Assembly (NCBI GenBank): GCA_015062385.1
Contig: SUUT01000003.1
Span: 1 to 63,783, forward strand
DNA from: Alphaproteobacteria bacterium
GTDB taxonomy: Bacteria; Pseudomonadota; Alphaproteobacteria; CAAHEQ01; UBA3637
DNA length: 63,783 nt
Reading direction: 5' to 3'
In this document: positions 1 through 63,783 of the stretch, in pieces
How the letters are laid out: each line of letters begins with the position of its first letter
Position numbering within the stretch: position 1 is the stretch's first letter
Notes under the pieces: generated by a model
Told to the model about the DNA's origin: nothing
Seen by the model: the letters and a program-made list of their open reading frames with translations, nothing else
Databases searched by the model: none
Translations under genes and position numbers: made by a program

Positions 1-109
1 CAGCAAAATCAAATTTTTGCAGAAATGAAAGATTATTGTTTGTGTTGAATATCTTATACAAAATCAAAAAAAATGCCAAAATGTGTAAAAAAGTGTTGCA
101 TTTATACGT
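1..109 (-). repeat. Dispersed intergenic element, copy A
   Basis: Read on the minus strand, this stretch matches 46383-46491 on the plus strand with no gap. Positions 109 to 45 match 46383-46447 at 60 of 65 bases. The remaining 44 bases are less similar but end in a shared block, CAAAAATxTGATTTTGCT. The match runs to the window edge, so the element may be longer. It lies just beyond the 3' end of recG and, in this orientation, points towards whatever minus-strand gene lies left of the window. No reading frame was recognised in it. Confidence 0.75.
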
Positions 110-194
110 CCCTTTTCTTGCAGATAAGGAAAAGATGTAAGTGATGTTTTTTTGTGTTTGTAAAGTGGGGATTGATTGTCCGGATATGATTTTT

Positions 195-5363: not shown

Positions 5364-5364
5364 T

Positions 5365-6839: not shown

Positions 6840-6849
6840 TTTTTTCTCC

Positions 6850-7563
6850 TTATTGTCCGTTGTTTCTTATGTTTGGATTTATTCGTTCCAATCGACCGTG
6901 TGATAAATGGAGTTGGTCAAAACGGAAATGTTTAATTAAATTTTGATTGTGTGTTGCAATGACAATTGTTGTTCCCAATTTATTTAATTCTAGAAATAAA
7001 TAGAGCAATCTTTTTGCCATAGCATCATCTACATTGCCGGTTGGTTCATCGGCAACAAGTAATTGTGGACGATTAATAACGGCACGAGCAATAGCAATAC
7101 GTTGTTTTTCTCCACCAGATAGCTCTGGTGGGAACGCTTTTAATTGCTTTTCTAAACCAACCCAAGCCAAAAGTTCGCTAACATGACGTTTAATTTCGGT
7201 TTCTTTTACGCCGGCAATTCGTAAAGGTAAAGCAACATTGTCAAATGCATTTAAATGATTAAGTAGTCGATAATCTTGAAAAACAACACCGATTTGGCGT
7301 CTAATTTGTGCTTTTTCAGCACGGGAAAGTGTATCAACAGCTTTTCCGAATAATCGAACACGACCTCGTGTTGGTAAATGGTTCATATAAAACAATCCGA
7401 GTAATGATGTTTTTCCGGCCCCGCTTTCGCCCGTCATGAAGTGAAATGACCCCGGATCCAGTGTTAATTGAATGTCTTTTAATATCTCCGAACCATGTCC
7501 ATAACGGAATGAAACGCCGTTAAACTCGGCAATTGGGGATGAAAGTTTATTTTTTTCAAACAC
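6850..7563 (-). CDS. ftsE: Cell-division ATP-binding protein FtsE
   Basis: FtsE is the ATPase partner of FtsX at the division site. The 237 residues show Walker A GESGAGKT (45-52), a Q-loop in GVVFQDYRLL, the signature LSGGEKQRIAIARA, Walker B LLVADEPTGNVD and the H-loop histidine in IATHN. The start codon is GTG, preceded by GAGG at nine bases. It heads the five-gene minus-strand operon. The C terminus is about 15 residues longer than the short FtsE versions. Confidence 0.95.
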   Translation of the reverse strand: MFEKNKLSSPIAEFNGVSFRYGHGSEILKDIQLTLDPGSFHFMTGESGAGKTSLLGLFYMNHLPTRGRVRLFGKAVDTLSRAEKAQIRRQIGVVFQDYRLLNHLNAFDNVALPLRIAGVKETEIKRHVSELLAWVGLEKQLKAFPPELSGGEKQRIAIARAVINRPQLLVADEPTGNVDDAMAKRLLYLFLELNKLGTTIVIATHNQNLIKHFRFDQLHLSHGRLERINPNIRNNGQ

Positions 7564-7597
7564 TTAACTTAACCTCTTTAAAAAATGTTGTATCTTT

Positions 7598-7627
7598 TTG
7601 CAAAATCGTATATATATTATTTACACT
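7598..7627 (+). promoter_or_regulatory. Candidate sigma70 promoter for the zinc-ribbon gene
   Basis: TTGCAA (7598-7603) and TACACT (7622-7627) are 18 bases apart and lie 24 bases upstream of the zinc-ribbon start, in the 88-base gap divergent from ftsE. Confidence 0.4.
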
Positions 7628-7651
7628 ATTTTTTTTAAAAGGGAAAGATAA

Positions 7652-9100
7652 ATGTTAGTTATATGTCCAAAATGTTTTACGCAATATGTTGTTTCAGATG
7701 AAATTAAACTGCCGGAAGGACAGAAATTTCATTGTTCTGCTTGTCAAAATTACTTTTTGCTGGATGCTGGTCGGCAAAATGCTTTTTTAAGTGGAAACGA
7801 GGATGAAACAGATATTATTCCAACTGTTTCTGCCGTTATGAATCAACAAAATGGAAATGTTATTACAAATTCTGTTGTGCCGTCCGGTGTCGAAAAAGAA
7901 ATTATATCCTCTAAACAACAGGTTGTTGCACAAAACAATACGGTTGACATGCAAACGTCAGATATTTCACTTATACAATCACCGGCAGAACCAAAATTTA
8001 CGGAGCCGTTATCTCTGTTATCGCAAGAAGTTCCACAGACAACCGATCGATTGGATTCTATTCCGGAAGCATTTAAACCGGTTATTCCCGAAAAGAAAAA
8101 AACATCTGTTTTATCTGTTTTGTTTTGGTTGTGTGTTGCCGGTGGTATTTGTTATGGGGCATATTTGCAAAAGGATTTTTTAATTGCTCAGGTAGATGAA
8201 TTTGTATTGGGTTCATTAGATAAAGATTCTCAAAAACAATCTGTAAAAACCTTGAAGAAAGAAACGGCTAAAAATATTCAGAAAGCTCAACCGGAAGATA
8301 TAAAACAAAAGCAGGTTGAAAGGGTTGATTCGGTTAAACGGATTGAAAAAACAGATGATGCAATTCAAAAAACGGAAAAAGTACAATCAATGGATGTTGT
8401 GTCGAGTGTAATGCCGATTGTTAAGCCGCAAAATCAGATGATTAAGGAAAATGACGGAGATGTAAAGCAACCGGATATTAAAAATGCTGATGTTTCTGAA
8501 GATATGGTCCAGTCGGTAGATTCTTATTCGAAGGATACTACGAAGAATGTATTGAAAAATAATCCGGATTCGCAGAATGCGACTGCACAGATTCAGTTGA
8601 CGGATGTGCCTTTGAATAATAATGTGGCTTTGCCGGTTAATTCGGTGGATGAAACGACTAAAGAGGAAGAAATACTTCCGACTTTAAACAGTAAAGACGA
8701 AAGTTTAGATGTAAAATCGGATGATGTTGTTCCGGTAGTTATTCGTGAACAAGCCGTTGTTTCTGATGCTTTTGCGGGATTAGGTGCTGTTCCGGAAGCA
8801 TCCGTTAGTGAGGCAAGTCGTATTTTGACGATTCGGGATATTGTTTATGAATTATCCCCTAATGAAGCCGGTGTTATGCGGTTAATGATAAAGGGGAATA
8901 TTGCCAATACCGAATTAAAGAAGATGGTTATTCCTGAATTAAAAGCGGTTGTTTATAATCATGAAGATATGGTTGTTGCCCGTAAACGAATTATTTTGTC
9001 ACAACCGGAAGTGGAGGGTAATACCGTGCAATCCTTTTTTTCAAGCGTTGTTCCGGCTCCGGTGGAAGTTGCTCGTGTGGAGGTAATATTTGATGAGTAA
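7652..9100 (+). CDS. MJ0042-type zinc-ribbon single-pass membrane protein
   Basis: The 482-residue protein starts with an MJ0042 zinc ribbon (Cys5, Cys8, Cys28, Cys31), followed by a low-complexity linker, a membrane segment at about 152-172 (VLSVLFWLCVAGGICYGAYL), a long acidic/basic Ser, Lys and Gln-rich spacer (about 190-370), and a folded C-terminal domain of about 110 residues. The predicted topology puts the zinc ribbon in the cytoplasm and the C-terminal domain in the periplasm. Such genes sit divergent from ftsEX in many alphaproteobacteria; their role is not established. It overlaps the next gene by eight bases. Confidence 0.85.
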   Translation: MLVICPKCFTQYVVSDEIKLPEGQKFHCSACQNYFLLDAGRQNAFLSGNEDETDIIPTVSAVMNQQNGNVITNSVVPSGVEKEIISSKQQVVAQNNTVDMQTSDISLIQSPAEPKFTEPLSLLSQEVPQTTDRLDSIPEAFKPVIPEKKKTSVLSVLFWLCVAGGICYGAYLQKDFLIAQVDEFVLGSLDKDSQKQSVKTLKKETAKNIQKAQPEDIKQKQVERVDSVKRIEKTDDAIQKTEKVQSMDVVSSVMPIVKPQNQMIKENDGDVKQPDIKNADVSEDMVQSVDSYSKDTTKNVLKNNPDSQNATAQIQLTDVPLNNNVALPVNSVDETTKEEEILPTLNSKDESLDVKSDDVVPVVIREQAVVSDAFAGLGAVPEASVSEASRILTIRDIVYELSPNEAGVMRLMIKGNIANTELKKMVIPELKAVVYNHEDMVVARKRIILSQPEVEGNTVQSFFSSVVPAPVEVARVEVIFDE

Positions 9101-9926
9101 AATGCCCCGTTTGTTAAGAAAAAAATCTAAAAAAAATACATCTGAAACGGTTATTTCATATCATTATAGGCGAGCATATTTGTGTTGGGGTTTGTGTGTC
9201 AGTACGTTTATTTGTATTGCATTTTTATCTTTGTTGAGTTTTGTTTTGTCTGCTCAAGCAGCTTGTCCCGCAGGGGAAATGGCTTTGAAGCAACAGAATG
9301 AAAAACGGGCTGTTTCTTATTTTACTAGATGTGCGTTGGATCGGAATGAGGAAGATGCTCAATTATGGTTGGCTCAATATTATCAAAAACAATCACAGGA
9401 TGATATCGGGAATGTGATGAAAAAGCTATTATTTTATCATCTTGCAGCTGAAAATGGAAATGCACATGCTCAGGTTGCATTGGCTAAAGTGTTGTTAAAA
9501 ATGGATGAAGCAGATTCTTCCAGAGCTGTTTTGTCGTCCTATTTAAATCAAATGGCTTATGCAATGGAGTCTCAAAATATGTTGTTTAAAGGCGAGATTT
9601 TGCATCCGTATGTTTTATTGGTATTAGCTGCAGAAAATGCCAATCAAAAATGGTATTATCCGACAACGAACAAGACAGACGGAGAGGCTCAGGTTTTATT
9701 GCAAAATTATGAAATGGATGATGAAAAGAAACAAGAACTTTTAAAACAAGGCAGTCAATGGAAGCAACGCAAAATGAAAGAGAGTGCTCAAGAAGTTTTA
9801 TCGTTTGCAGAATATACTGATTTTATTCAAACGGTTTATCCGGAACAAGGACGAGCAGATGCTTTTGCCCGTCAACAAGCCGTTGCGAATTTAAAAGAAA
9901 AGATTGATAATTATTTGAAACAGTAA
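9093..9926 (+). CDS. Sel1/TPR-like membrane-anchored protein
   Basis: A 277-residue protein with a basic N terminus and one hydrophobic segment (about 33-55) ending in AQAA, either an anchor or a late signal peptide. The rest is helical with Sel1-like repeats, for example AQLWLAQYYQKQ and KLLFYHLAAENGNAHAQVALAKVLL. Such repeats usually scaffold protein-protein contacts in the envelope. A TTG codon sits directly before the ATG; the ATG is chosen because its distance from GGAGG (nine bases) is better. The overlap with the zinc-ribbon gene suggests coupling. No specific function is recognised. Confidence 0.75.
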   Translation: MSKMPRLLRKKSKKNTSETVISYHYRRAYLCWGLCVSTFICIAFLSLLSFVLSAQAACPAGEMALKQQNEKRAVSYFTRCALDRNEEDAQLWLAQYYQKQSQDDIGNVMKKLLFYHLAAENGNAHAQVALAKVLLKMDEADSSRAVLSSYLNQMAYAMESQNMLFKGEILHPYVLLVLAAENANQKWYYPTTNKTDGEAQVLLQNYEMDDEKKQELLKQGSQWKQRKMKESAQEVLSFAEYTDFIQTVYPEQGRADAFARQQAVANLKEKIDNYLKQ

Positions 9927-46170: not shown

Positions 46171-46562
46171 ATAATGTAAAAATAAGTTTTTTATCTAAAA
46201 TTGACCTTTTGGTCAGTTAATGCTGTTTTTCTTGTTATTATAGTCATTTTTTTCTTTTGATAGTGAGATTTTTGATGGAAATAAAAATAGTAGAACTATT
46301 TTTTTATTGTTTTTCTATGTATTAGTATAATTGTGTGATATTGGCTGATGTGTGTTTTAAAATATAAGCGGGTGAAAAACGTACGTATAAATGCAACAAT
46401 TTTTTTCACATTTTTGGATTTTTTTTGATTTTGAATAAGATATTCAATTAAAAGAAGAAACTAGCACTTTCTCAAAAATCTGATTTTGCTAATTCGAATA
46501 GGGAAAAAAAGGTACCTTTTTTTATAATATAAAGTAGTAGTATCTTTATAGGGAGAAGTCGT
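46171..46562 (+). other. 392-bp intergenic region before the giant gene
   Basis: No open frame of note is seen. TGACC (46202-46206) and GGTCA (46211-46215) form a short inverted repeat around TTTT. A TATAAT at 46326-46331 has TTATTG 16 bases upstream (46304-46309) and could start a long 5' untranslated region. A second TATAAT at 46523-46528 has no good -35 box. The dispersed element (46383-46491) lies between the two. The ribosome-binding site AGGGAGAAG is just before the giant gene. Confidence 0.6.
46383..46491 (+). repeat. Dispersed intergenic element, copy B
   Basis: This copy matches the minus strand of 1-109 without gaps; the first 65 bases (46383-46447) are identical at 60 positions and the rest is partly conserved, closing with a shared CAAAAATxTGATTTTGCT block. 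It ends 71 bases upstream of the giant gene's start codon. It may lie in a promoter region or within a long 5' untranslated region. Confidence 0.75.
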
Positions 46563-49500
46563 ATGTTTAAAGTAAAAATGCAAGACCTTGGCCGAAGTAT
46601 GGTAGAAATGCTGGGCGTATTAGCGATTATCGGGGTATTATCCGTTGCAGGGATAGCAGGATATCGTTATGCGATGGACCGATATATAGCAAACGACGTC
46701 TTACACGAATCAAACATACGGGGCTTTGACGTAACGGCAAACTTTAAAGGAAGACGTCTGCCGGATATAGCAGAAATCGGGGGATACGCAAAATACACGG
46801 GGACAGGTAAACCGATAGGAGTCTATCCGAATCCGGAAGATTTTAGTTGGTCTGAATATGCGGACAAGTGTCCGAGTGAAGACTTGTGTCAAGCATTTGA
46901 CGTAGAAGTCAAGGGGTTAAATAAACGGCAATGTCAGATGATTATGCAGAGCAGTTGGGAATTGCCGGATGCGTACTTGGTATCAACAGGAATAGCAGGG
47001 GATACAAGCGGAGACGGAACGGCCCCGATAGCGAGCGTATCATCAAGCAGACCGATAATGCGAACAGCAAGCAATGCAGATAGCGGGTTGTGTGATGAGT
47101 TTGAGGAGGATGAACAGAACATAGCGATACGGTTCCGGTTTGTCTCAACATTTACGGATTTTACGGATGGAGATTACGAGACCGGTTGGGAAGATGGGAT
47201 AACATCGGATGATACGGACGGTACCGGCGGGGGAAGCAGTACCGGCGGGGGAACAGGGGACGGCACCGGAGGTACAACCGGTGGTGGCGGAACACCGACA
47301 CCGGAAACGCCAATAGATTCGGATCAAAATGATGATCCGGAACCGGTTGTATGTAGTGGGGGCAAAGAAGATAACGGAAACGGTATTTGTGTATGTCCAA
47401 GCGGAACAACAGAATTTAGTGGGGTCTGTAAAACAAATTGCACGGGTGGTAAAGAGTTTGATAGTACGGGAACCTGTGTGTGTCCAAGCGGAACAACAGA
47501 ATATAATAATGAATGTAAAACAAGTTGTACGGGCAATTTTGCGTTTGACAGTGAAGGTAATTGTACAAAGTGTATTTCTAATTATTACGGCAACGATTGT
47601 ACGTCATATTGTACAGAAACATGGAGCAATGGTACGTGTGTGTGTAATGATTCGGATTCGTATTGGGACGGAACGAGTTGTGTGAGTTGCGGAACGAATC
47701 AACAGGTAAACAGTTCAAAAACGGGGTGTGAGTGTGAAACAGGATATTACGGAAGTGGATGTACAACGTATTGTAGCGGAACGAATGCTTCTTGGAATGA
47801 GCTAACATCGGAATGTGGATGTTCCAGTGGTCATTGGGATGGAAATGAATGTGTGATTTGTACAGGAAATATGCAATGGAGTGATACGGAAAAAGAATGT
47901 GTGTGTCAGGATAATTACTTTGGGAGTAGTTGTGCAACTTATTGTAACGAAGAAGAAGCAACATATAATAATGGAAATTGTGAATGTAACACAGAGAATT
48001 CGTATTGGAATGGCAGTAGTTGTACGGTTTGTGATGTGAACGGGGAAGTCAACGGCAACGAAGACGGATGTGTCTGTCGAAACGGATATTCCGGAAACGG
48101 ACAAACGTGTGAGGTATGCGAAACACCGAGACAGACGACAGCAGGGAATACGGGTTGTGAATGCCCCGGTGGAATGGAATATATAGCGAGTACGAATAAA
48201 TGTTACGACAGTGACGGAGGTTATACAGAAAATTATTGCGATGCAGGAGAAATTTGGAATGGGTCAGAGTGTGTACCAAACAGTTGCACAACAACAGCAG
48301 ATTGTCCGGGGACATATTATTGTGACATAGCAAGCAGCACATGTATTAAGGATCCGGCATGTACGGATACGAATACAATATTGGATATAACAAAAGAAAA
48401 ATGTGATAAATGTGAAGATAGATTTTATGTAGAAGCAAGCGGATATTGTACGCATTGTAATAATCAAACAACAATAGAAAATACAACACAGGCAGAATGC
48501 GAAGTTTGTGCAAATCGGATATGGACATCGGATGGTATTTGTACGGTTTGTCCGACAGGGCAAGTTCGTTTGAACACTGGATATTGTGGATGTGTAGATG
48601 GTTTTGTATGGGATACAACAACATTAACCTGCATGGATGTTGTGACGTATTGTACAAATGTAATGAAGAATGCCGGATTTGAAAGTGGGTTTATGGTTGA
48701 AGGAACGATTATTACATATACCGGTAATATGACGATTACTGATACAGTTAATTTATCACCATGCACATTGGAAGTATCCGGACAGATAATAATTGAAGAT
48801 GGAGGCACATTAAGTGTTGATGATATTATCGTAGATAACGGGAATAATGATTCGCCGGCAATTTCTATAGAAGATGGTGGAACGTTAATAGTTCCGGATA
48901 TTTATTATTGTAAAGAAATTAGCAATCAGGGGACAATTAACGGTAATTTACATTGTGTAAGCGGATGTGAATGTGATTGTTCGGCAGATAATACAATTTG
49001 TATGGGAGATACGCCGTATTGCACAAGCGGTATTTGTTCAAAATGTCCAATTGAGACACCACATTATAATGAAACAAGCGGTTGTCAAACCTGTGAAACC
49101 GCCAATACGACTTTGCCATATTGGAATGGTGAAACGCATCAGTGTGAAAATTGTCCGGAAACAACTCCTTTATGGGATTCAACAACAAAAGAATGTATTA
49201 AACAGCCTTGTGAAACGACTGATGACTGTCTAGACACTTATTATTGTGATATGAATGCCAAAGTTTGTGAAAAATTTGTTTGTTCGGCAGCAGATGTTTT
49301 GTATGATATGATTGAATCGGAATGTGAAGTTTGCGAAAATCGGTTTTGGTCAGTATTAATGGGATATTGTGTTTCTTGTGACAATCCTATTGATATTTCT
49401 CCGACAACAAAAGCAGATTGTGAAGAATGTACAAACAGATATTGGACTTCTCAAGCTGAAGGGGCAGATAGTGGTGTTTGTTCTATGTGTCCCAAAGGGC

Positions 49501-52500
49501 AATATCGGGATAGCATGGGGATTTGTGCTTGTCCGAGTAATTTGGTTTGGGATACAACAACACTAACATGTACGGATGTTGAAACTTTCTGTATTAACGG
49601 CATGAAAGCGGCAGGATTTGATGAAGAAAATTATGCTGTATCCGGTGATGTTATTACATATACGGGAAATATGCGTATTGCACAAGATTTACCTCTTTCG
49701 GCCTGTTATTTAAAAGTAGATGGGGAGTTGACTGTTAATGAAGGTGTTATTTTGTCAACAAACATATTACATGTGAACAGTCCGGATAATGTTGCTATCT
49801 TTGTTATCGGAGAATTAACAGCAACGGATATATATTATTGTAAAGAAATTGAAAATAACGGGCAAATTAACGGTACACTTCATTGTGCAGAAGGGTGTAA
49901 TTGTGATTGTTCCGCTGATGAAACTCTTTGTACGGGAGAAACACACTATTGTACTGTTGATGTGTGTTCTCGTTGCCCATTTGAAACACCGGTTTGGAAT
50001 GAAACAATCGGTTTGTGTGAAACCTGTCCGGATAATACGGTTTGGAATGGGGAATCTTGTGTATCTGAAGAAACATTCTGTGCACAAAGGATGCAGATGC
50101 TTGGATACAATTCAGATGATTTTACGGTAGAAGATGATACCATTACCTATGATGGAGATATGATTGTTTTAAGGCATTTAGATATGTATGCCTGTAATTT
50201 GAATGTGACCGGTATGGTTGATATGTCGGAAAATGGTGCCATAAATGTTAAAAATTTAACCGTTCGTTCAGATGAAGAATATGGAATTTTAGTACGAGGT
50301 TCTATTCATGTTTTAGAAAATGTTAATATCGTTGCAGATAAATACGGTGTTTATGTTTTAGATTCGGCAATTATGACTGTTGATGGTGATATATCGGCCT
50401 ATGGTAATGATACCGGTATTTACGTAGATATGGGAGGTACTTTAAATGCTCGGAATATTCACGGAACAGGCGGACAAGGTGTTTATAGCTATTATGGTAA
50501 AGTTGTTTCTTCCGGTACAATCAGTTCCGATGCAGATGGGAATGGTATATATTTTGATACCGGCAGTACTGCAGAAGCCGTTAATATTAATGCACTTGGT
50601 GGATTAGGATTAGGTGTGTATGAGGCAACACTGTCTGTTTCAGAAAATATTGTTGCAACGGGAAATACAGATAAGGGTATTTATATAGGATACTCTGATG
50701 TAACGGTGTTGGGGGTAGTTACCGGTTATGGAAAAGGTGGTTATGGTGTACATATCTTCCGATCATCTGAATTAACAGCACAAGATGTGGTTGGGGAAGG
50801 TACATCATCCGGTATTTATTTGTATGTAGATTCGGTTGTTAATGCAACAACAGTGACGGGTATGGCAACAGGTTCTATTTCTCATGGAATAGAATCATAT
50901 GAATGTTCTATTAATGCGGAATTGGTAACCGGTACAGGGGGAGAGGCCGGTATATGGAAACAGTATCGCTCCGGGGATTGGAATGTTTCAAAAATTGTTG
51001 GAATTGGTGGAATGTATGGTATTGTTGCAACAAATTATACAACATTGACAGCGGATGAAATTGAGGCAAAAGGAGATGAGTATGCTCTTTTGGTTGTGGG
51101 TAGCTCCTCTGTTACTGCAACAGATATGTATTATTGTAAAGCATATTCGCTGGATGCAGGTTATATTTATCAAAGTGGTTCTTCTAGTTATAAGACGGCA
51201 GGAACGGCTATTACCGGAAATATGCATTGTATGAATGGGTGTGCTTGTGCCTGTGAAACAGATAGTACTTGTTCAGAAGAAATGCCGTTATGTGTAGATA
51301 GTGTTTGTACAATTTGTCCTGCTGAAACACCCTATTGGAATGGAACAACTTGTAAGGTGTGTCCGACAGAAACGCCGTATTTAAATGCTGAAACGGCCCA
51401 ATGTGAGATTTGTCCGATGGGGCAGGTATGGAACACAGATGGAGATACCTGCGTTGTAGAGACGTGTTTATCTAGTATGGTAAATGCCGGATATGCTACA
51501 ACAGCATATGTAGTGGAAGGGGATACGATTACATATACCGGTAATATGACGGTTGCGACAGATTTAGACATTTCCGAATGTAATTTAAATGTTGCCGGTG
51601 TTTTAACGATTAATTCGGGAAAAACATTGACGGTTAACAATGTGACGGCTACTTCAACAAATAATCACGGTATATATTTAAATTCCGGTATATTAAATGC
51701 AAGTGGAGATGTTAGTGGTAGTACGACAACAACGAGTACATCATCTTATTACGGTATTTATGTTAAGGGAACAGGAACACTCAGTGCTGAAAATGTAACA
51801 GCTTCCTGTGTCACAAAGACAGGATTAAATATTGATGCTGCTGGTGGTAGTGTTAATGCAAGAGGGGATATAACATCAACCGGAAAAACATATGGATTAA
51901 CAACTGTTGGGACAGTTACAGCACAAAATATAACGGCAACAGGAACAAGTTATGCCGGAATATATGTTAACGGAGCAAGTGCTAAAATAACGGCAACAGG
52001 TAATATCAGTGGAACAAGTACGTCATCATACGGTGTATATGCATATAATGGAGGTATTATAGAAACAGGTGGAAATGTAATCGGTGAGAGTACATCAAAT
52101 CATGGTATTTATATGTCAGATAGTACATCATCCATTCAAGGTTCAACTGTTACAGGAAGCAGTGAAACAGCAAGTGGTATTTATATTAATACGGCAACAA
52201 ATGTGATGGGTGCTTCAAGTAGAATTGAGGGTACAGGCGGAACGTATGGTATTTATACGAAAGGGGATATTGTTTCCGAAGGTAGTATTAACGGTACGGG
52301 GAATACATACGGCATTAATGTTGTTGGTACGAATAGAATTGCGGCCATTGGAAGCATTAAAGCAACAGGCGGAACACATGGTTTATATGTGACAGCCGGT
52401 GGAAGTGTGGAAACGGTAACCGGATCTGTAACGGGAACAGGTTCAACCTATGGTGTGTTTGTAAAAACAAGTGCCGGTAAAATTTCTTCTACAAATGTTT

Positions 52501-55500
52501 ATTACTGTGAAACATATAGTAATGCAGGAACAATCAATGTAACACCAAAATGTGCAAGCGGATGTCACTGTGATTGCTCAACAGATGAAACCGTATGTAC
52601 AGGTAATACACAATATTGTTTGCAAGGTGTGTGTTTAGAATGTTCTGATGATACACAAATTTGGAATGAAGAAGAAGGTCAATGTGTATCATGTCCGGAT
52701 GGGCAAGTGTTTGATTTTGATTACAATGCTTGTATTGTAGATACCTGTCGGTCTAAGTTAGCCGATGCCGGATATACCTCAACAGCGTATGTAGTGAAAG
52801 GAGATACGATTACATATACCGGTAATATGACGGTTGCGACAGATTTAGACATTTCCGAATGTAATTTAAATGTTGCCGGTGTTTTAACGGTTAATTCGGG
52901 AAAAACATTGACGGTTAACAATGTGACGGCTACTTCAACAAATAATCACGGTATATATTTAAATTCCGGTATATTAAATGCAAGTGGAGATGTTAGTGGT
53001 AGTACGACAACAACGAGTACATCATCTTATTACGGTATTTATGTTAAGGGAACAGGAACACTCAGTGCTGAAAATGTAACAGCTTCCTGTGTCACAAAGA
53101 CAGGATTAAATATTGATGCTGCTGGTGGTAGTGTTAATGCAAGAGGGGATATAACATCAACCGGAAAAACATATGGATTAACAACTGTTGGGACAGTTAC
53201 AGCACAAAATATAACGGCAACAGGAACAAGTTATGCCGGAATATATGTTAACGGAGCAAGTGCTAAAATAACGGCAACAGGTAATATCAGTGGAACAAGT
53301 ACGTCATCATACGGTGTATATGCATATAATGGAGGTATTATAGAAACAGGTGGAAATGTAATCGGTGAGAGTACATCAAATCATGGTATTTATATGTCAG
53401 ATAGTACATCATCCATTCAAGGTTCAACTGTTACAGGAAGCAGTGAAACAGCAAGTGGTATTTATATTAATACGGCAACAAATGTGATGGGTGCTTCAAG
53501 TAGAATTGAGGGTACAGGCGGAACGTATGGTATTTATACGAAAGGGGATATTGTTTCCGAAGGTAGTATTAACGGTACGGGGAATACATACGGCATTAAT
53601 GTTGTTGGTACGAATAGAATTGCGGCCATTGGAAGCATTAAAGCAACAGGCGGAACACATGGTTTATATGTGACAGCCGGTGGAAGTGTGGAAACGGTAA
53701 CCGGATCTGTAACGGGAACAGGTTCAACCTATGGTGTGTTTGTAAAAACAAGTGCCGGTAAAATTTCTTCTACAAATGTTTATTACTGTGAAACATATAG
53801 TAATGCAGGAACAATCAATGTAACACCAAAATGTGCAAGCGGATGTCACTGTGATTGCTCAACAGATGAAACCGTATGTACAGGTAATACACAATATTGT
53901 TTGCAAGGTGTGTGTTTAGAATGTTCTGATGATACACAAATTTGGAATGAAGAAGAAGGTCAATGTGTATCATGTCCGGATGGGCAAGTGTTTGATTTTG
54001 ATTACAATGCTTGTATTGTAGATACCTGTCGGTCTAAGTTAGCCGATGCCGGATATACCTCAACAGCGTATGTAGTGAAAGGAGATACGATTACATATAC
54101 CGGTAATATGACGGTTGCGACAGATTTAGACATTTCCGAATGTAATTTAAATGTTGCCGGTGTTTTAACGGTTAATTCGGGAAAAACATTGACGGTTAAC
54201 AATGTGACGGCTACTTCAACAAATAATCACGGTATATATTTAAATTCCGGTATATTAAATGCAAGTGGAGATGTTAGTGGTAGTACGACATACACAGGAA
54301 CATCGTCTTATTGGGGTGTTTATGTGAAAGGTACCGGTTTGCTTAATGCAACTAATTTAACAGTCTCATCTGTGAAAACAGCAGGATTAAATATTGATGC
54401 AACCGGTGGTAGTGTTAATGCAAGAGGGGATATAACGGTAACAGGTGGCACGTATGGTATTTCTACGCTTGGAGCTGTTACAGCACAAAATATAACGGCA
54501 ACAGGAACAAGTACTGCCGGAATATATGTTAATGGAGCAAGTGCTAAAATAACGGCAACAGGTAATATCACTGGAACAAGTACATCATCATACGGTGTAT
54601 ATGCATATAATGGAGGTATTATAGAAACAGGTGGAAATGTAATCGGTAAGAGTACATCAAATCATGGTATTTACACAACCGGTGGAGCATCATCTATTCA
54701 AGGTTCAACTATTACAGGAATCAGTGAAACGGCAAGCGGTATTTATATTAATACGGCAACAAATAGTTTAACAGCTACGCAAGATGTGATTGCTAATGGA
54801 GCAGTTTATGGTATTTACAGTATCGGAGCTGTTAATGGAATCAATATTATTGGAACAGGCGGAACAAATGCCGGTGTTTATATGGGGGGTACAAGCGGTA
54901 AGTTAACAGCAAAAGGTAATGTGACAGGAACAAGTACATCTTTGTATGGTATTTATATCTATAATGGAGCTATTTTAACGGCAGAAAGTGATATAATCGG
55001 TACAAGTATAAATAGTCACGGGATTTATTTAAGTAATTCAACAGCCCAATTAACGGCAAAAGGAACAGTATCGGGAACTAGTGCAACAACATCCGGTATT
55101 TACGTTAATACCGCAACAAATACGCTAACGGGAACAATAGGAGTTATCGGAAAGGGTTTAATCAATGGTATTTATGCTGTGGGGAATATTGTTTCCGAGG
55201 GGAAAGTAGAAGGAACAGGTGATACATACGGTATTCATGTATATGCATCTAATAAAATTACGGCCAATGAAGTGATTGGAAACGGCGGTACTCACGGATT
55301 GTATATAACGGCTGCCGGTACGATTGAATCAACGGGTTCGGTAACCGGAACAGGTTCAGAATATGGGGTATTTGTTAAAGCCGCAACTGGTACAATTACG
55401 TCTGAAAATGTCTATTATTGTAAAACATATAGTAATGCAGGGACAATTAGTGTAATGCCAAAGTGTGCAAGTGGCTGTTCTTGTGCCTGCGAATCCCAAA

Positions 55501-58115
55501 CGTCTGTGTGTAGCGGGGATACACCATTATGTCGTCATGGTACTTGTGAACCCTGTCAATCAGATAGGCCTTATTGGAATGGGACCGAATGTACGGTTTG
55601 CCCAATGGAAACCCCTGTTTGGAATGAAACGACAAAGCATTGTGAAACTTGTCCGATAGGAACTATGTGGAATATCACATCTCGTATTTGTGAACAATGT
55701 TCTTCCCAAAATGGATTGGCATGGGATGGAACGACGTGTGTTGCCGTTGAAGAAGCCTGTACTACACAAATGCGAGAAGTTGGTTTTTCATCAGATAACT
55801 ACACCGTTGATGATAACACAATTACCTATACAGGACAAATGACAGTTAACAAGGATTTATATATACCCGCTTGTAATTTAAAGGTTGTTGGAACATTAAA
55901 AGTTGAAAATGGGGCAAAATTAACGGTTAATGATGTAGATGTGACAGAAAGTACCTTTGAAAAAGCTATTCATATTGAAAATGGTGCATTACATGCGTTA
56001 GGTTCTGTTTCGGCGTATGCCCGAAATGATTCGGCAATTTATGTTTATACAAATGGTTCTTTGATTGCTCAAAAAAATATTCAAGGCACATCAGAGGGAA
56101 GTGGATATGGTGTTTATGTATATCAAGGGAATATAACGGCTCAACAAAACCTCATCGGTTCAGCTATATCAAATAGTGGGGTGTTTGTTTCACGTGGTAC
56201 ATTGACGGTGCGTGGTAATGTAACGGCAACCGGTTCTTCGGGTTTATATGTTCGGAGTTCGGCAGTTTCAAATGTTTATGGCAATATTTATGCAAGTGCT
56301 GGTTCATCTTATGGTGTAATGGTGTATGAGGCAGCAAAATTACAGGTAAATGGAAATGTGACTGGCGTTAGTACCGGTTCGTATGGGGTATATGTAAATG
56401 AGGGTAGATTAGACGTTAATAATTTATTATCGGGTATTTCCGGTAGCAGTTATGGTGTGTATGGTATTATCAGTACGGGTAATACGACTATTAAAGCAGC
56501 AGATATTAAAGGAGTTGGTAGTGTTACAGGTATTTATGCAGATTCATACGGATCCGGAAAAAATTTGGATATAATTGCTATAAATGGTATATCCGGTTAT
56601 GGGGGATTATATGGAATTAATGTGGATGGATTTACAGCTTCCTTTGATGGTACGGTCGTTCTGACAGCTCCGAACATTTATTATTGTACTTCATATATGA
56701 ATGAGAGTGAGAATACTAAAATAAACGGTACACTTCAATGTGCACCAGATTGTGACTGTTCAGTAAAGAATATATGTATTGGAAAAACACCATACTTAAA
56801 CATGGAAACCGGAGAATGTGAAGCCTGTCCGACAGAAACACCGGTTTGGAATGAAACACTTATGCAATGTGAAGCCTGTCCGATAGAAACACCGGTTTGG
56901 GATGCAGAGCAAGGAAAATGCACACAGTGTGAAACAGAAACACCATACTATAATACAGATACCGGTCTATGTGAATCTTGTACAGGTAATACACCATATT
57001 ATAATGAGGACACAAAAGTTTGTGAGCGATGCCCGATAGATATGCCGGTTTGGAATACAGTTACATTACAATGTGAGGCCTGTCCGGAAAAAATGCCGGT
57101 TTGGAATGGAACAACTTGTGTAACGGAAAAAGATTTTTGTACAACTGCAATGACAGAGGCTGGATTTGGTACGGATAAATTTGCCGTTTTAAAAAATGAA
57201 ATTATTTATGCCGGTAATATGAGCGTCTTTTATGATTTGGATTTATCGGCTTGTCATTTAAAAGTAAATGGTACATTAACGGTAAAAGAAGATAAAGTAT
57301 TAAAAGCAAATACTGTTACGGTATCATCCGAAGCAGAATATGGTATTCGCATACAAGAAGGAGCATCCTTAATTACAAAAGGAGATGTTTCTGCCGTTGC
57401 AAAAGAGTATGGTGTTTATGTGGGTACCGGTAACTTGACTGTCGGAGGAACATTAACCGGAGAAAGTAAAGAACGGACTGCCGTATATTTTAAAACCGGA
57501 TCAACAATAGTTATTGATTCTGATTTAATCGGTACGAATACCTCATTAGGTGAAGAAAACGGATACGGCATATCTTCCGGTTCGGGTGTTTTTGTGACGA
57601 TTAAAGGTAATGTTCGTGGACAAGGATATATGGGGGTTTCTGTAAGTGGAAACTGGATTATTGAGGGAACATTAACGGCGATTGGTGATTATGCTCAGGG
57701 TTTAGATGTTTATGGAAATTTATGGATTGCCGGTAATTCTGAAATTACAAATCCGGGATCTGGTTGGGCAACAGCAGGCATTAATGATACAGGAAGGGTG
57801 GTTTCTTTATCTAATTTTGTTTCAACTGGGGCATACATGGCTGTTTCTAATACTGGATATATAAATGTTGCCGGAGAATTGATAGGTATAAGTACTGGGT
57901 TATCTGATGGGACTAGTTTTGGTTTGCATAATTCGGGAACAGTAATAGCAGGCGTTATAAAAGCTAAAGCTCCAACTTCGAGCTATGCTCATTCAATATC
58001 CAATTTCCTAGAAAAGTCATTTATTAAGGCTAAAACAAAAATTTATTATTGTGGAAGCGGGATTGATAATGACGGCACAATTAGTCCTACACCGGTTAAG
58101 AATTGTAATTGGTAG
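46563..58115 (+). CDS. Giant prepilin-headed Cys-rich/beta-helix repeat protein
   Basis: A single 3850-residue frame. The N terminus has a type IV prepilin signal: short basic leader, Gly10 before the cleavage site, Glu15 at +5, then a hydrophobic helix (about 16-34). A pilin-like domain with few cysteines runs to about 215, then a Gly/Thr linker (about 219-245). EGF-like Cys-rich modules fill about 262-690. From about 695, eight units each start with a C(x)3-5M(x)2-3G segment and TYTGNMT-like motif, continue with beta-helix-like repeats (GIYVNG, GVYAYNG) and end in a Cys-rich CPxETPxWN stretch. No C-terminal barrel or sorting signal is seen. Export by a type II secretion/type IV pilus system and surface location are inferences; no such genes are in the window. 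Confidence 0.88.
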   Translation: MFKVKMQDLGRSMVEMLGVLAIIGVLSVAGIAGYRYAMDRYIANDVLHESNIRGFDVTANFKGRRLPDIAEIGGYAKYTGTGKPIGVYPNPEDFSWSEYADKCPSEDLCQAFDVEVKGLNKRQCQMIMQSSWELPDAYLVSTGIAGDTSGDGTAPIASVSSSRPIMRTASNADSGLCDEFEEDEQNIAIRFRFVSTFTDFTDGDYETGWEDGITSDDTDGTGGGSSTGGGTGDGTGGTTGGGGTPTPETPIDSDQNDDPEPVVCSGGKEDNGNGICVCPSGTTEFSGVCKTNCTGGKEFDSTGTCVCPSGTTEYNNECKTSCTGNFAFDSEGNCTKCISNYYGNDCTSYCTETWSNGTCVCNDSDSYWDGTSCVSCGTNQQVNSSKTGCECETGYYGSGCTTYCSGTNASWNELTSECGCSSGHWDGNECVICTGNMQWSDTEKECVCQDNYFGSSCATYCNEEEATYNNGNCECNTENSYWNGSSCTVCDVNGEVNGNEDGCVCRNGYSGNGQTCEVCETPRQTTAGNTGCECPGGMEYIASTNKCYDSDGGYTENYCDAGEIWNGSECVPNSCTTTADCPGTYYCDIASSTCIKDPACTDTNTILDITKEKCDKCEDRFYVEASGYCTHCNNQTTIENTTQAECEVCANRIWTSDGICTVCPTGQVRLNTGYCGCVDGFVWDTTTLTCMDVVTYCTNVMKNAGFESGFMVEGTIITYTGNMTITDTVNLSPCTLEVSGQIIIEDGGTLSVDDIIVDNGNNDSPAISIEDGGTLIVPDIYYCKEISNQGTINGNLHCVSGCECDCSADNTICMGDTPYCTSGICSKCPIETPHYNETSGCQTCETANTTLPYWNGETHQCENCPETTPLWDSTTKECIKQPCETTDDCLDTYYCDMNAKVCEKFVCSAADVLYDMIESECEVCENRFWSVLMGYCVSCDNPIDISPTTKADCEECTNRYWTSQAEGADSGVCSMCPKGQYRDSMGICACPSNLVWDTTTLTCTDVETFCINGMKAAGFDEENYAVSGDVITYTGNMRIAQDLPLSACYLKVDGELTVNEGVILSTNILHVNSPDNVAIFVIGELTATDIYYCKEIENNGQINGTLHCAEGCNCDCSADETLCTGETHYCTVDVCSRCPFETPVWNETIGLCETCPDNTVWNGESCVSEETFCAQRMQMLGYNSDDFTVEDDTITYDGDMIVLRHLDMYACNLNVTGMVDMSENGAINVKNLTVRSDEEYGILVRGSIHVLENVNIVADKYGVYVLDSAIMTVDGDISAYGNDTGIYVDMGGTLNARNIHGTGGQGVYSYYGKVVSSGTISSDADGNGIYFDTGSTAEAVNINALGGLGLGVYEATLSVSENIVATGNTDKGIYIGYSDVTVLGVVTGYGKGGYGVHIFRSSELTAQDVVGEGTSSGIYLYVDSVVNATTVTGMATGSISHGIESYECSINAELVTGTGGEAGIWKQYRSGDWNVSKIVGIGGMYGIVATNYTTLTADEIEAKGDEYALLVVGSSSVTATDMYYCKAYSLDAGYIYQSGSSSYKTAGTAITGNMHCMNGCACACETDSTCSEEMPLCVDSVCTICPAETPYWNGTTCKVCPTETPYLNAETAQCEICPMGQVWNTDGDTCVVETCLSSMVNAGYATTAYVVEGDTITYTGNMTVATDLDISECNLNVAGVLTINSGKTLTVNNVTATSTNNHGIYLNSGILNASGDVSGSTTTTSTSSYYGIYVKGTGTLSAENVTASCVTKTGLNIDAAGGSVNARGDITSTGKTYGLTTVGTVTAQNITATGTSYAGIYVNGASAKITATGNISGTSTSSYGVYAYNGGIIETGGNVIGESTSNHGIYMSDSTSSIQGSTVTGSSETASGIYINTATNVMGASSRIEGTGGTYGIYTKGDIVSEGSINGTGNTYGINVVGTNRIAAIGSIKATGGTHGLYVTAGGSVETVTGSVTGTGSTYGVFVKTSAGKISSTNVYYCETYSNAGTINVTPKCASGCHCDCSTDETVCTGNTQYCLQGVCLECSDDTQIWNEEEGQCVSCPDGQVFDFDYNACIVDTCRSKLADAGYTSTAYVVKGDTITYTGNMTVATDLDISECNLNVAGVLTVNSGKTLTVNNVTATSTNNHGIYLNSGILNASGDVSGSTTTTSTSSYYGIYVKGTGTLSAENVTASCVTKTGLNIDAAGGSVNARGDITSTGKTYGLTTVGTVTAQNITATGTSYAGIYVNGASAKITATGNISGTSTSSYGVYAYNGGIIETGGNVIGESTSNHGIYMSDSTSSIQGSTVTGSSETASGIYINTATNVMGASSRIEGTGGTYGIYTKGDIVSEGSINGTGNTYGINVVGTNRIAAIGSIKATGGTHGLYVTAGGSVETVTGSVTGTGSTYGVFVKTSAGKISSTNVYYCETYSNAGTINVTPKCASGCHCDCSTDETVCTGNTQYCLQGVCLECSDDTQIWNEEEGQCVSCPDGQVFDFDYNACIVDTCRSKLADAGYTSTAYVVKGDTITYTGNMTVATDLDISECNLNVAGVLTVNSGKTLTVNNVTATSTNNHGIYLNSGILNASGDVSGSTTYTGTSSYWGVYVKGTGLLNATNLTVSSVKTAGLNIDATGGSVNARGDITVTGGTYGISTLGAVTAQNITATGTSTAGIYVNGASAKITATGNITGTSTSSYGVYAYNGGIIETGGNVIGKSTSNHGIYTTGGASSIQGSTITGISETASGIYINTATNSLTATQDVIANGAVYGIYSIGAVNGINIIGTGGTNAGVYMGGTSGKLTAKGNVTGTSTSLYGIYIYNGAILTAESDIIGTSINSHGIYLSNSTAQLTAKGTVSGTSATTSGIYVNTATNTLTGTIGVIGKGLINGIYAVGNIVSEGKVEGTGDTYGIHVYASNKITANEVIGNGGTHGLYITAAGTIESTGSVTGTGSEYGVFVKAATGTITSENVYYCKTYSNAGTISVMPKCASGCSCACESQTSVCSGDTPLCRHGTCEPCQSDRPYWNGTECTVCPMETPVWNETTKHCETCPIGTMWNITSRICEQCSSQNGLAWDGTTCVAVEEACTTQMREVGFSSDNYTVDDNTITYTGQMTVNKDLYIPACNLKVVGTLKVENGAKLTVNDVDVTESTFEKAIHIENGALHALGSVSAYARNDSAIYVYTNGSLIAQKNIQGTSEGSGYGVYVYQGNITAQQNLIGSAISNSGVFVSRGTLTVRGNVTATGSSGLYVRSSAVSNVYGNIYASAGSSYGVMVYEAAKLQVNGNVTGVSTGSYGVYVNEGRLDVNNLLSGISGSSYGVYGIISTGNTTIKAADIKGVGSVTGIYADSYGSGKNLDIIAINGISGYGGLYGINVDGFTASFDGTVVLTAPNIYYCTSYMNESENTKINGTLQCAPDCDCSVKNICIGKTPYLNMETGECEACPTETPVWNETLMQCEACPIETPVWDAEQGKCTQCETETPYYNTDTGLCESCTGNTPYYNEDTKVCERCPIDMPVWNTVTLQCEACPEKMPVWNGTTCVTEKDFCTTAMTEAGFGTDKFAVLKNEIIYAGNMSVFYDLDLSACHLKVNGTLTVKEDKVLKANTVTVSSEAEYGIRIQEGASLITKGDVSAVAKEYGVYVGTGNLTVGGTLTGESKERTAVYFKTGSTIVIDSDLIGTNTSLGEENGYGISSGSGVFVTIKGNVRGQGYMGVSVSGNWIIEGTLTAIGDYAQGLDVYGNLWIAGNSEITNPGSGWATAGINDTGRVVSLSNFVSTGAYMAVSNTGYINVAGELIGISTGLSDGTSFGLHNSGTVIAGVIKAKAPTSSYAHSISNFLEKSFIKAKTKIYYCGSGIDNDGTISPTPVKNCNW
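51522..54290 (+). repeat. Near-identical 1281-bp tandem repeat inside the giant gene
   Basis: Copy 1 (51522-52802) and copy 2 (52803-54083) are aligned at a constant offset of 1281 bases (427 codons) and looked identical wherever compared except A/G at 51609/52890. The first 207 bases of a third copy (54084-54290) match too, then it diverges into a related module. The period preserves frame. Confidence 0.92.
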
Positions 58116-61410: not shown

Positions 61411-63783
61411 ATGAAAGTTTTTATCGGGAACAATTTGGGATACAGCTCCTCCACTTTATCCGAGACGGAAACTGTTTTTTTAGAAGCAATAAAAACAGGA
61501 AATACGCAGCAAATTCAAGAATTAATTAGTAAGGGCATAGATATCAATAAAAAATTAGATTTTGATGTGCCGTTAGCTATTGCCGTAAGGTATGAACAAC
61601 CGGAAGTTGTTCGGTTGCTATTAAATAATCAAGCTGATTTTACGGCATTAAATTCCATGGATAAATATAATTTATTGTTTTTATTTAGAACGGAGATTCA
61701 ATCATTTATTACAAAATACAATATTAATGTTCAGGAGCCGGATGAAAATGGTATATCGTTGATACAGCGGGCAATGTTTCAGGATGATCTTGAATTTTTT
61801 AAAATATTTGTTCAGGTTTCGGGTCGATTAAAAGATGATGTCGTTCATAAGGTTATTCAGAATTGTTCGGTTGAATTTTTACGATATTTAATTCAAGAGG
61901 GGTATGATATAAAGGCTTTGAACGCAGCAGGTGAACCACCGATTGTTTCTGCTGTTCAATCGGGGAATCCGGAGATGGTTCGTGTATTGGTTGATGCTGG
62001 TGTAGATGTAAATACCATAACGGTTAATGGACAAAAGGTTTCTCTGTATGACTATATTCCAAATGGTGATAGAGAAATGTTTCGGATGCTGGTTGCTTGT
62101 AATGCTTCGCTTCAAGAAACGACTGAGGAGGGAGATACCGAACTCCATAAAGCAGTGCGAAATGGTAATATATTTAAAATTAGAGCATTGATTGCGGCAG
62201 GGATTGATGTGAATGCTCAAAATGAAGCCGGAAATACGGCAATGCATCTGGCTATGGAACAGAATCATCAGATTGCGTATGTCTTCATGAGTGAATGTCG
62301 TACTCATAATGTATCATTGAATTTAAATTTGCAAAATTATGATGGAAATACGCCATTTCACTTTTTGGTAACAAAACAACGCGGAATATCAACATTATTA
62401 CCAATAATGCTTGAAAATGGGGCAGACATTAATGTTCAAAATAATGAGGGTAATACACCTTTACATTTTGCCGGAAAACTTTTGAATTTAGAAGCAATAC
62501 AATTATTTTTGGCAAATGGAGCAAATCCATATATTCAAAATTTTTGGGGAAATACACCATACCATTTTGTTCATGCTCATAGAACTAACCCTAAATTGAG
62601 TAGGTCTGTTTGGGAGTGTATTGCTCTGTTTAATGATCAAAACATAGATATTAGAAGGTTATCGACAACAGAAAATAAATCAGGTCAAAGTGTTCAATCA
62701 ATGGGCAGAGAAGAATTTCAACTTCCATTAATTGATGAATCCAGTATTCCTCGTATATATTCAATTCCCCGTCCACAAACACCTTCATCTGCAATGCCGG
62801 CACCGATTGATTTTGATGCTCCAATGGTTTCAAATGGACCTCCTATTCCCATTCTACCACCACAACCCTTAGAGGAAAGCAATATACCAATTTTGCCAGT
62901 ACAAGTTGAACCGATGCAATATTCTGGGAGTAATATTTCACCCATATCAGATCCACCCCCGCTCAATCCGACGCCACCGATGCCCCCAACGGATAAGGAA
63001 GAAATAAAGCACGAAGATATTCCGCTGTCGGTAGATGCTGTTCCGCCAGTGTCACAAAGTGAAATACCTTTGCCACAACCGGCTCCGGTGGAAATGGTTC
63101 CTCCACCACAAGTTCAAATTGAACCGATGCAATATTCAGAGAATAATATTTCACCCATATCAGATCCGCCCCCGCTCAACCCGACGCCACCGATGCCCCC
63201 AACGGATAAGGAAGAAATAAAGCACGAAGATATTCCGCTGTCGGTAGATGCTGTTCCGCCAGTGTCGCAAAGTGAAATACCTTTGCCACAACCGGCTCCG
63301 GTGGAAATGGTTCCTCCACCACAAGTTCAAATTGAACCGATGCAATATTCAGAGAATGATATTTCACCCATATCAGATCCACCCCCGCTCAATCCGACGC
63401 CACCGATGCCCCCAACGGATAAGGAAGAAATAAAGCACGAAGATATTCCGCTGTCGGTAGATGCTGTTCCGCCAGTGTCACAAAGTGAAATACCTTTGCC
63501 ACAACCGGCTCCGGTGGAAATGGTTCCTCCACCACAAGTTCAAATTGAACCGATGCAATATTCAGAGAATAATATTTCACCCATATCAGATCCGCCCCCG
63601 CTCAACCCGACGCCACCGATGCCCCCAACGGATAAGGAAGAAATAAAGCACGAAGATATTCCGCTGTCGGTAGATGCTGTTCCGCCAGTGTCGCAAAGTG
63701 AAATACCTTTGCCACAACCGGCTCCGGTGGAAATGGTTCCTCCACCACAAGTTCAAATTGAACCGATGCAATATTCAGAGAAT
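61411..63783 (+). CDS. Ankyrin-repeat protein with Pro-rich tandem repeats, 3' partial
   Basis: The frame is open for 791 codons and runs off the window. The ATG follows GGAGGGGTGTAA. Residues about 20-390 form ankyrin repeats, for example EGDTELHKAVRNGNIFKIRALIAAG, NEGNTPLHFAGKLLNLEAI and GNTPYHF, with more degenerate ones early. A linker follows, then from about residue 499 a Pro-rich region made of 71-residue tandem repeats (PPPLNPTPPMPPTDKEEIK, LPQPAPVEMVPPPQVQIEP). No signal peptide is seen. Ankyrin proteins of host-associated alphaproteobacteria are often effectors, but nothing here proves secretion. The C-terminal end is not visible. Confidence 0.88.
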   Translation, partial: MKVFIGNNLGYSSSTLSETETVFLEAIKTGNTQQIQELISKGIDINKKLDFDVPLAIAVRYEQPEVVRLLLNNQADFTALNSMDKYNLLFLFRTEIQSFITKYNINVQEPDENGISLIQRAMFQDDLEFFKIFVQVSGRLKDDVVHKVIQNCSVEFLRYLIQEGYDIKALNAAGEPPIVSAVQSGNPEMVRVLVDAGVDVNTITVNGQKVSLYDYIPNGDREMFRMLVACNASLQETTEEGDTELHKAVRNGNIFKIRALIAAGIDVNAQNEAGNTAMHLAMEQNHQIAYVFMSECRTHNVSLNLNLQNYDGNTPFHFLVTKQRGISTLLPIMLENGADINVQNNEGNTPLHFAGKLLNLEAIQLFLANGANPYIQNFWGNTPYHFVHAHRTNPKLSRSVWECIALFNDQNIDIRRLSTTENKSGQSVQSMGREEFQLPLIDESSIPRIYSIPRPQTPSSAMPAPIDFDAPMVSNGPPIPILPPQPLEESNIPILPVQVEPMQYSGSNISPISDPPPLNPTPPMPPTDKEEIKHEDIPLSVDAVPPVSQSEIPLPQPAPVEMVPPPQVQIEPMQYSENNISPISDPPPLNPTPPMPPTDKEEIKHEDIPLSVDAVPPVSQSEIPLPQPAPVEMVPPPQVQIEPMQYSENDISPISDPPPLNPTPPMPPTDKEEIKHEDIPLSVDAVPPVSQSEIPLPQPAPVEMVPPPQVQIEPMQYSENNISPISDPPPLNPTPPMPPTDKEEIKHEDIPLSVDAVPPVSQSEIPLPQPAPVEMVPPPQVQIEPMQYSEN
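62925..63783 (+). repeat. Tandem 213-bp repeat (71 codons), running off the window
   Basis: GGATAAGGAAGAAATAAAGC recurs at 62991, 63204, 63417 and 63630, exactly 213 bases apart. Copies 1 and 3 share variants (CCACCCCC, CTCAATCC, GTGTCACAAAG) and copies 2 and 4 share others (CCGCCCCC, CTCAACCC, GTGTCGCAAAG), so the larger unit is 426 bp. Confidence 0.93.

Follow-up and report, generated by a model that had tools for sequence, protein, structure and literature searches.

A giant type IVb pilin-like protein and about 100 paralogs, most of them behind probable invertible half-promoters, in an alphaproteobacterial genome

Some minor pilins are large: those of the CofB type and ComZ reach about 500 residues. 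Each of these is a single, fixed minor pilin with a large C-terminal extra domain. In ComZ this domain is a β-solenoid (PMC8179133). Modular pilins, in which a functional module is grafted onto a small pilin module on the filament (as in PilB and PilC of Streptococcus sanguinis), now number more than 1,200 proteins with 264 architectures, the most extreme of which by domain number has 860 residues (PMC8179133). Diversification of a pilin by DNA inversion is known from PilV, the type IVb adhesin of IncI plasmids; in the shufflon of R64 and TP114, a tyrosine shufflase rearranges 3' cassettes of the one pilV gene, so that a constant N-terminus is joined to a variable C-terminus (PMC9045228). Inversion of dispersed promoters is known from Bacteroides fragilis, in which the serine invertase Mpi inverts 13 regions, among them seven polysaccharide promoters (PMC4747536). 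In a defined gut community as many as 181 invertons per genome have been found (in Mitsuokella), and one group sharing a site motif comprises 32 invertons of Akkermansia (PMC11892184). A read-based survey saw inversions in none of four alphaproteobacterial species (PMC5903667).

The window described here is the whole stretch of DNA that was analyzed, 63,783 nucleotides from an alphaproteobacterial genome. Its parts belong to known kinds; their combination and scale are unusual. The reading that we favor, with a probability of roughly 0.75, is that a giant gene in the window belongs to a set of modular type IVb (PilV-like) pilins subject to phase variation, whose half-promoters are invertible, are flipped by an Mpi-type enzyme, and are mostly OFF, that of the giant included. 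As in the modular pilins, a small pilin module carries a grafted module that would be displayed on a filament; here, however, the module is type IVb-like, the tail has about 3,600 residues rather than a few hundred, and there are ~100 paralogs in one genome, with putative invertible promoters (PMC8179133). The pilus machine class, the constant pilin N-terminus, the variable C-terminus and, presumably, DNA inversion are shared with PilV and its shufflon, but in place of 3' cassettes of one gene there are complete genes, each with its own apparent promoter switch and serine-invertase-like sites (PMC9045228). The likeness to the B. fragilis system lies in one serine invertase family that would flip many small promoters, scattered over the genome ahead of surface genes; the differences are that about 90 copies of one element precede one gene family, that the host is an alphaproteobacterium, and that the -10 box lies outside the segment (PMC4747536). 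Among open-licence papers, no description of this head family or of its switch was found.

The giant protein is encoded by a single uninterrupted open reading frame of 3850 residues, located exactly where an earlier note on this DNA had placed it (Table 1). Its head reads MFKVKMQDLG/RSMVEMLGVLAIIGVLSVAG, in which Gly10 precedes the predicted cut (slash), Glu is at +5, and a hydrophobic helix, with a hydrophobic stretch of about 20 residues, comes next. The earlier note had drawn attention to this Gly10/Glu15 prepilin signature and helix, and both residues prove to be invariant across 38 aligned heads. The pilin-sized domain that it described extends to about residue 200, its Gly/Thr linker starts at residue 215, and its EGF-like cysteines amount to 40 or more between residues 263 and 700. 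All eight of its repeat units have been located by their ITYTGNM-type caps, at residues 717, 1031, 1194, 1656, 2083, 2510, 3087 and 3547; units 1 and 2 are short. Each cap follows the pattern ..DTITYTGNMTV..C.L.V.G.LTV.., and each unit ends in IYYC or a variant of it, followed by a Cys-rich spacer. A prepilin-type head on a very long rod is real, with head and β-solenoid units in one reading frame. The statement that prepilin signals are normally found on proteins of 150-300 residues is less apt, since it overlooks the more than 1,200 known modular pilins (PMC8179133). (In addition, a tandem repeat of about 213 nt, with repeated near-identical small ORFs, lies near the right edge of the window at about 62960-63771.)

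Table 1. Features of the giant gene and its upstream element (positions in the window), and genes of the pilus operon
Feature	Position	Strand	Basis or remark
Left recombination site, AAAAACGTACG, central dinucleotide TA (46382-46383)	46375..46385	+	flank/site comparison
Putative invertible segment between crossover points; outward-facing -35 box TTGCAT on minus strand of 46391-46396	46384..46512	+	majority orientation, presumed OFF
Right recombination site, AAAAAAAGGTACCTTTTTTT, central dinucleotide TA (46513-46514)	46504..46523	+	flank/site comparison
Static -10 box TATAAT; 17 bp from TTGCAT once segment is flipped	46523..46528	+	in silico flip
Giant modular type IVb pilin-like protein, 3850 aa	46563..58115	+	translation
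Class III leader, residues 1-10, predicted cleavage after Gly10; mature +1 Arg, +5 Glu	46563..46592	+	translation, head alignment
Pilin module, residues 11-200; α1 helix 7-60 and β sheet; nearest folds type IVb pilins	46593..47162	+	predicted structure, fold comparison
Gly/Thr-rich linker, residues 215-260 (more narrowly 215-248)	47205..47342	+	translation
Cys-rich region, EGF-like spacing, residues 263-700	47349..48662	+	translation
Unit 1, short solenoid, about 60 aa	48630..48962	+	repeat comparison
Unit 2, short solenoid, about 60 aa	49575..49886	+	repeat comparison
Unit 3, β-solenoid, model pLDDT 91	50070..51152	+	structure model, fold comparison
Unit 4	51450..52562	+	repeat comparison
Unit 5, duplicated recently from unit 4 and almost the same (identical stretches 51610-53009 and 52891-54290)	52731..53843	+	nucleotide self-comparison
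Unit 6	54012..55472	+	repeat comparison
Unit 7	55740..56747	+	repeat comparison
Unit 8 and C-terminus, ending in same IYYC closing motif	57126..58112	+	repeat comparison
PilL, TcpQ domain	C8 operon		PF10671, 3e-17
PilN secretin	C8 operon		TIGR02520, 1e-78
PilO	C8 operon		PF06864, 4e-28
PilP	C8 operon		TIGR03021
PilQ ATPase	C8 operon		PF00437, 8e-68
PilR	C8 operon		PF00482, 8e-27

Structure prediction for a single unit, which the earlier note had proposed, yields a confident β-solenoid for unit 3, and Pfam Beta_helix scores above its cut-off in the giant (28.4 versus 25.9 bits). In VIA-align, unit 3 resembles many β-helix proteins, with the Vag8 autotransporter passenger best (Z 28.6) and the exoprotein EtpA at 22.9, a ranking that speaks for a common fold only; Foldseek returned nothing for the solenoid at E below 0.001. 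Whereas Vag8 and EtpA, which share the solenoid rod, depend on autotransporter or two-partner export, Pfam and NCBIfam searches across the 3850 residues found neither a C-terminal barrel nor a TPS export domain; the C-terminus is itself a solenoid unit. By Pfam, repeats and fold, the extra module of the giant (Cys-rich stretch plus solenoid) is of a general kind and not peculiar to pili. Since each turn takes about 24 residues, a period visible in the sequence, the roughly 2,100 solenoid residues would, if stacked, make a rod estimated at some 40 nm. Units 4 and 5 go back to a recent tandem duplication that kept the reading frame (1400 nt repeated without a difference, offset by 1281 nt, window 51610-54290), and such an exact duplication within the gene indicates that rod length varies in whole units.

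For the pilin module, a sequence search of the PDB gave no significant match (best 0.54), and therefore folds were compared. An AlphaFold2 model of residues 1-215, made with 38 relatives (pLDDT 73, pTM 0.67), has a 54-residue helix and a five-stranded sheet. All 16 leading Foldseek matches to this model are type IVb pilins (TcpA, CofA, PilS). VIA-align likewise places it near CofA (9iuf, Z 10.3, rmsd 3.8, 159 aligned), PilS (3fhu, 10.2) and TcpA (3hrv, 9.1), with other pilins at Z below 7. One paralog matches the PilS family PF08805 (E 0.003).

The genome also encodes the apparatus that such a head would need. The earlier note took the absence of a prepilin peptidase as an observation that would refute its reading; a peptidase (PF01478) is present on contig C3, next to two pilin genes. 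The note's suggested search for type IV pilus genes leads to a complete type IVb operon on contig C8, the single machine of this kind in the genome, in which the genes for PilL, PilN, PilO, PilP, PilQ and PilR stand together in the order of IncI type IVb pili; a PilT-like ATPase is encoded on C24. Processing of the head can thus fall to the C3 peptidase, and its assembly to the dedicated type IVb apparatus of C8. (A VirB11-like ATPase and a VirB10-like protein at L185:3888-7995 on contig C7 indicate that the genome has a type IV secretion system as well.)

It has to be considered that the head might be a membrane anchor only, such that the giant would sit in the inner membrane through its helix, cleaved or not, and outside the pilus, an arrangement compatible with a promoter switch. 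A size far above that of any demonstrated pilin (we know of no prior case of a 3850-residue pilin being polymerized), the large Cys-rich tails of many paralogs, and the Arg found at +1 in nearly all of the 38 aligned heads, where characterized pilins usually carry Phe, Met or Leu, are all in line with an anchor. Against it stand the invariance of Gly-1 and Glu+5, the predicted type IVb-like fold of the module, and the presence of both peptidase and complete machine, and we consider the anchor unlikely, although a serious alternative. On the favored reading, the giant is a modular type IVb (PilV-like) pilin whose N-terminal module would be cut by the C3 peptidase and would then enter, or cap the tip of, a pilus made by the PilL-N-O-P-Q-R machine, so that its tail of disulfide-rich stretch and solenoid would be shown as an adhesive rod.

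The earlier note had suggested that the giant may be a distinct class of adhesin or surface fibre, but it is the extreme member of a family of about 100 paralogs in its own genome. When other proteins with the same head are sought, as the earlier note advised, its first 212 residues match 107 places in this 1.81 Mb genome (45 contigs, 99% complete) and a 45-column head profile gives 103 matches; some of these are fragments at contig ends, and the true gene number is about 90-107. Given about 105 occurrences in the genome, together with the invariant glycine and glutamate, the head of the giant is not a chance resemblance. The open frames of the head genes add up to 181 kb, or 10% of the assembly, and the 77 genes with at least 300 aa have a median length of 689 aa among themselves. 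Their tails, taken from residue 200 on, have a median Cys content of 9.5%, and those of 63 proteins form 23 clusters. A few heads are found on plain pilins of 144-181 aa, two of which adjoin the prepilin peptidase. There is a second giant on contig C21 (2661 aa plus a missing head), an ortholog fragment of the first in another species (1642 aa or more, head 74% identical), and the capped solenoid occurs at 21 places in this genome, at 17 in one sister species, and at one each in three others.

The head is present in all 43 examined genomes of the order, which all belong to one family, at 1 to 103 copies each. In a spread of 289 genomes of the class it occurs outside of the family in only 15 of about 286, with 1-15 copies, mostly on plain pilins (frames of 150-320 aa). 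The MAGs of the relatives stem from samples of rumen, rectum, caecum and rabbit gut. Assembly breaks where heads are repeated or where the upstream element has mixed orientations, and thus more giants are probably hidden. Many contig ends fall inside a head or just past an element (C4, C7, C12, C17, C18, C25, C28, C30, C34, C37, C39, C44 and C45).

More informative than the giant itself is a feature upstream of it that is absent from the earlier note, a putative invertible promoter element. This element of ~150 bp (46375-46530, with a conserved stretch at 46375-46524) lies 35-45 nt before the start codon. Comparison of 5' flanks shows that it has sharp edges and is 77-97% identical before 74 genes, the coding parts of which are far more diverged. 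Its two ends are inverted copies of one site, AAAAAAAGG(GA/TA/AA)CG on the left and AAAAAAAGG(TC/TA/TT)CCTTTTTTT on the right. Between species the sequence of the site varies while its form, A5-7, six bases (N6), T5-7, is kept. A structured leader RNA, formed by long-range pairing of the ends, was considered and is out, because copies that lie inverted mean that these ends act as sites in the DNA.

These inverted copies are few. Among 100 copies of the element in the loci examined, counted in the assembled consensus of MAGs and with contig-end fragments included, 85 precede a head and all face the same way, and a further five (C4:7329, C6:4857, C9:85901, C13:34504 and C26:97176) are turned round at the same distance from theirs; the remaining ten precede plain pilins or other genes or lie at contig ends. 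All five have the joints expected if the segment had been excised and reinserted in reverse, with the outer flanks unchanged, and the segment can be seen in both orientations between such unchanged flanks, both when paralogous copies are compared and when different loci within a genome are. Since the sites are only about 20 bp long and inverted copies occur in three genomes, assembly error is an unlikely source of them.

The terminal inverted repeats, the length of about 150 bp and the copy number of about 100 would also suit a small, MITE-like mobile element that has inserted itself either way round ahead of pilin genes. Almost all copies, however, precede the start codon of a member of one gene family by 35-45 nt, both flanks are colinear in the oppositely oriented CALXXW pair described below, and the static -10 box stays outside the site in inverted copies, which together make an inserted element very improbable.

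Several copies have other surroundings. One, truncated, lies at the left edge of the window (5-119, minus strand), its gene being beyond the contig end. Three precede genes without a prepilin head, namely that of a 122-aa secreted, Cys-containing protein (L052:9272-9419, C36:29271), a thymidylate-kinase-like ORF (L022:12637-12788, C3:34636), and a 208-aa ORF (L063:7209-7354, C40:57208). A longer element of about 180 bp is found in the majority orientation at three genes of major-pilin size (L023:9262-9441, L022:5730-5909, and L023 near 11256), so that major pilins may be switched too.

How inversion might control transcription can be read from the position of the promoter boxes. Copies in the majority orientation have GGGAAA as the hexamer ahead of the fixed -10 box, and no σ70-like -35 sequence at the right distance. 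When the segment is flipped in silico, TTGCA(T/A)-17-TAnAnT arises in 79 of the 79 parsed copies; in nearly all of them, TTGCAT or TTGCAA is then exactly 17 bp from TACACT, TATAAT or TATACT. With a generic σ70 matrix, every one of these copies scores better flipped, and the mean rises from 4.9 to 7.9. (It should be noted that TTGCAT is not a strong consensus -35 box.) Because flipping yields the better σ70 promoter, we infer that the majority orientation is OFF and that the five minority copies are ON; the element of the giant, which is in the majority orientation, would then be OFF. Genes that would be ON are those at C6:2626-4815, C9:84085-85863, C13:31532-34462 and from C26:97372 on. The logic could be reversed, with the majority ON and the minority OFF: this orientation is found in 85 of 90 copies, and a sigma factor or activator not yet known could use it. 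Yet the majority form has no σ70-like -35 box, the flipped form is the better one throughout, and the CALXXW segment has a clear TTGACA box of known direction; we give the reversed assignment little credence.

The sites also indicate what kind of enzyme would act on them. Their central dinucleotides match in every parsed copy, and by eye in the others, with about 60 copies of the GA/TC class, about 20 of TA/TA, and 2 of AA/TT. The main variable position within the sites belongs to this dinucleotide. In a tree of segment interiors there are about ten changes of class, with the two ends changing in concert, a rough count given that the tree is short and AT-rich and that two labels are mis-parsed. 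For the serine invertase Hin, one base change in one hix core prevents ligation in the inverted orientation (PMC4817059). A protein of 250 aa encoded on contig C26 of the genome matches NF009949, 'master DNA invertase Mpi family serine-type recombinase' (4.7e-81, 271.3 bits, just below the cut-off of 272). The constant match of the dinucleotides, the Hin precedent and this Mpi-like gene favor a serine invertase. In the loci examined from relatives, NF009949 matches at 271.4 bits in L114 and at 293.5 bits, above the cut-off, in L171, where the gene is directly upstream of a pilin gene. Two small tyrosine recombinases of 198 and 193 aa with weak FimB/FimE-type matches (L025:8103-8699 and L027:1554-2135) are alternative candidates for the flipping enzyme.

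Both orientations are also seen in other species. RGIG7750, from water buffalo, has a single inverted locus (L163) against nine of the majority kind. In E20_bin339 (CALXXW), the flanks of two head genes are colinear (97% identical) and the middle between the flanks is inverted (92%); the site GTGTCACAAAAAAAGGATCCTTTTTTTGTGACAC or a close variant stands at each segment end; the TTGACA box inside the segment faces the gene in L115 and faces away from it in L125, and by its sequence this is a textbook ON/OFF pair. In the rabbit relatives TTGCA is present at both segment ends, and a simple ON/OFF logic may be doubtful there. In L106, a rabbit MAG, two plain pilin genes (about 4660 to 9800) are read from one shared segment that has a site on either side and, at each end, a TTGCA box facing outward; flipping of this segment may choose between the two promoters or balance them.

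Promoter-like sequence at both ends, as in the rabbit relatives, might be expected if the element were an ordinary, non-inverting regulatory region, whose palindromes would be operators that co-regulate the modular pilins and were duplicated with the genes. Conservation of the element in sequence and position before ~85 genes, with most copies in one orientation, would fit as well. Such operators do not explain the in-place inverted copies with exact joints in three genomes, nor would they need matched central dinucleotides at distant sites; the boxes spaced by 17 bp that flipping creates in 79/79 copies and the presence of Mpi-like invertase genes also argue against them. We regard an operator region as quite unlikely.

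Taken together, these comparisons point to a process in which most of the 90-107 head genes would have their own half-promoter, consisting of a segment of ~130 bp that carries a -35 box and is framed by serine-recombinase sites in inverted orientation, and a fixed -10 box adjacent to it. An Mpi-family master serine invertase would flip these segments at low frequency, few pilin genes would be ON in a given cell, and their products would be processed and put into type IVb pili, where the tails may act as adhesins or as variable decoys. With five copies facing their gene and 85 facing away, the pilins made by a cell would be a small and shifting selection. The evidence leans toward a still broader proposal, that of a genome-wide switchboard in a gut alphaproteobacterial family, in which one master serine invertase would serve roughly 90-100 half-promoters, nearly all before a single gene family; few of the ~100 pilins (up to 3,850 residues) would be displayed per cell while populations hold the rest in reserve, and antigenic and adhesive diversification would proceed by choice of promoter and not by shuffling of cassettes.

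If this is true, we know of no larger set of promoter inversions that serves a single protein family, and it would lie in a class for which the read-based survey saw inversions in 0 of 4 species (PMC5903667). The known size of prepilin-headed proteins is extended to 3,850 residues. Matched A-N6-T sites located 35-45 nt before a GRSMVEMLG gene provide a signature that can be reused in metagenomes. For uncultured gut bacteria with small genomes, the proposed switch offers a testable model of surface variation, which would probably be directed against phages, hosts or partner cells.
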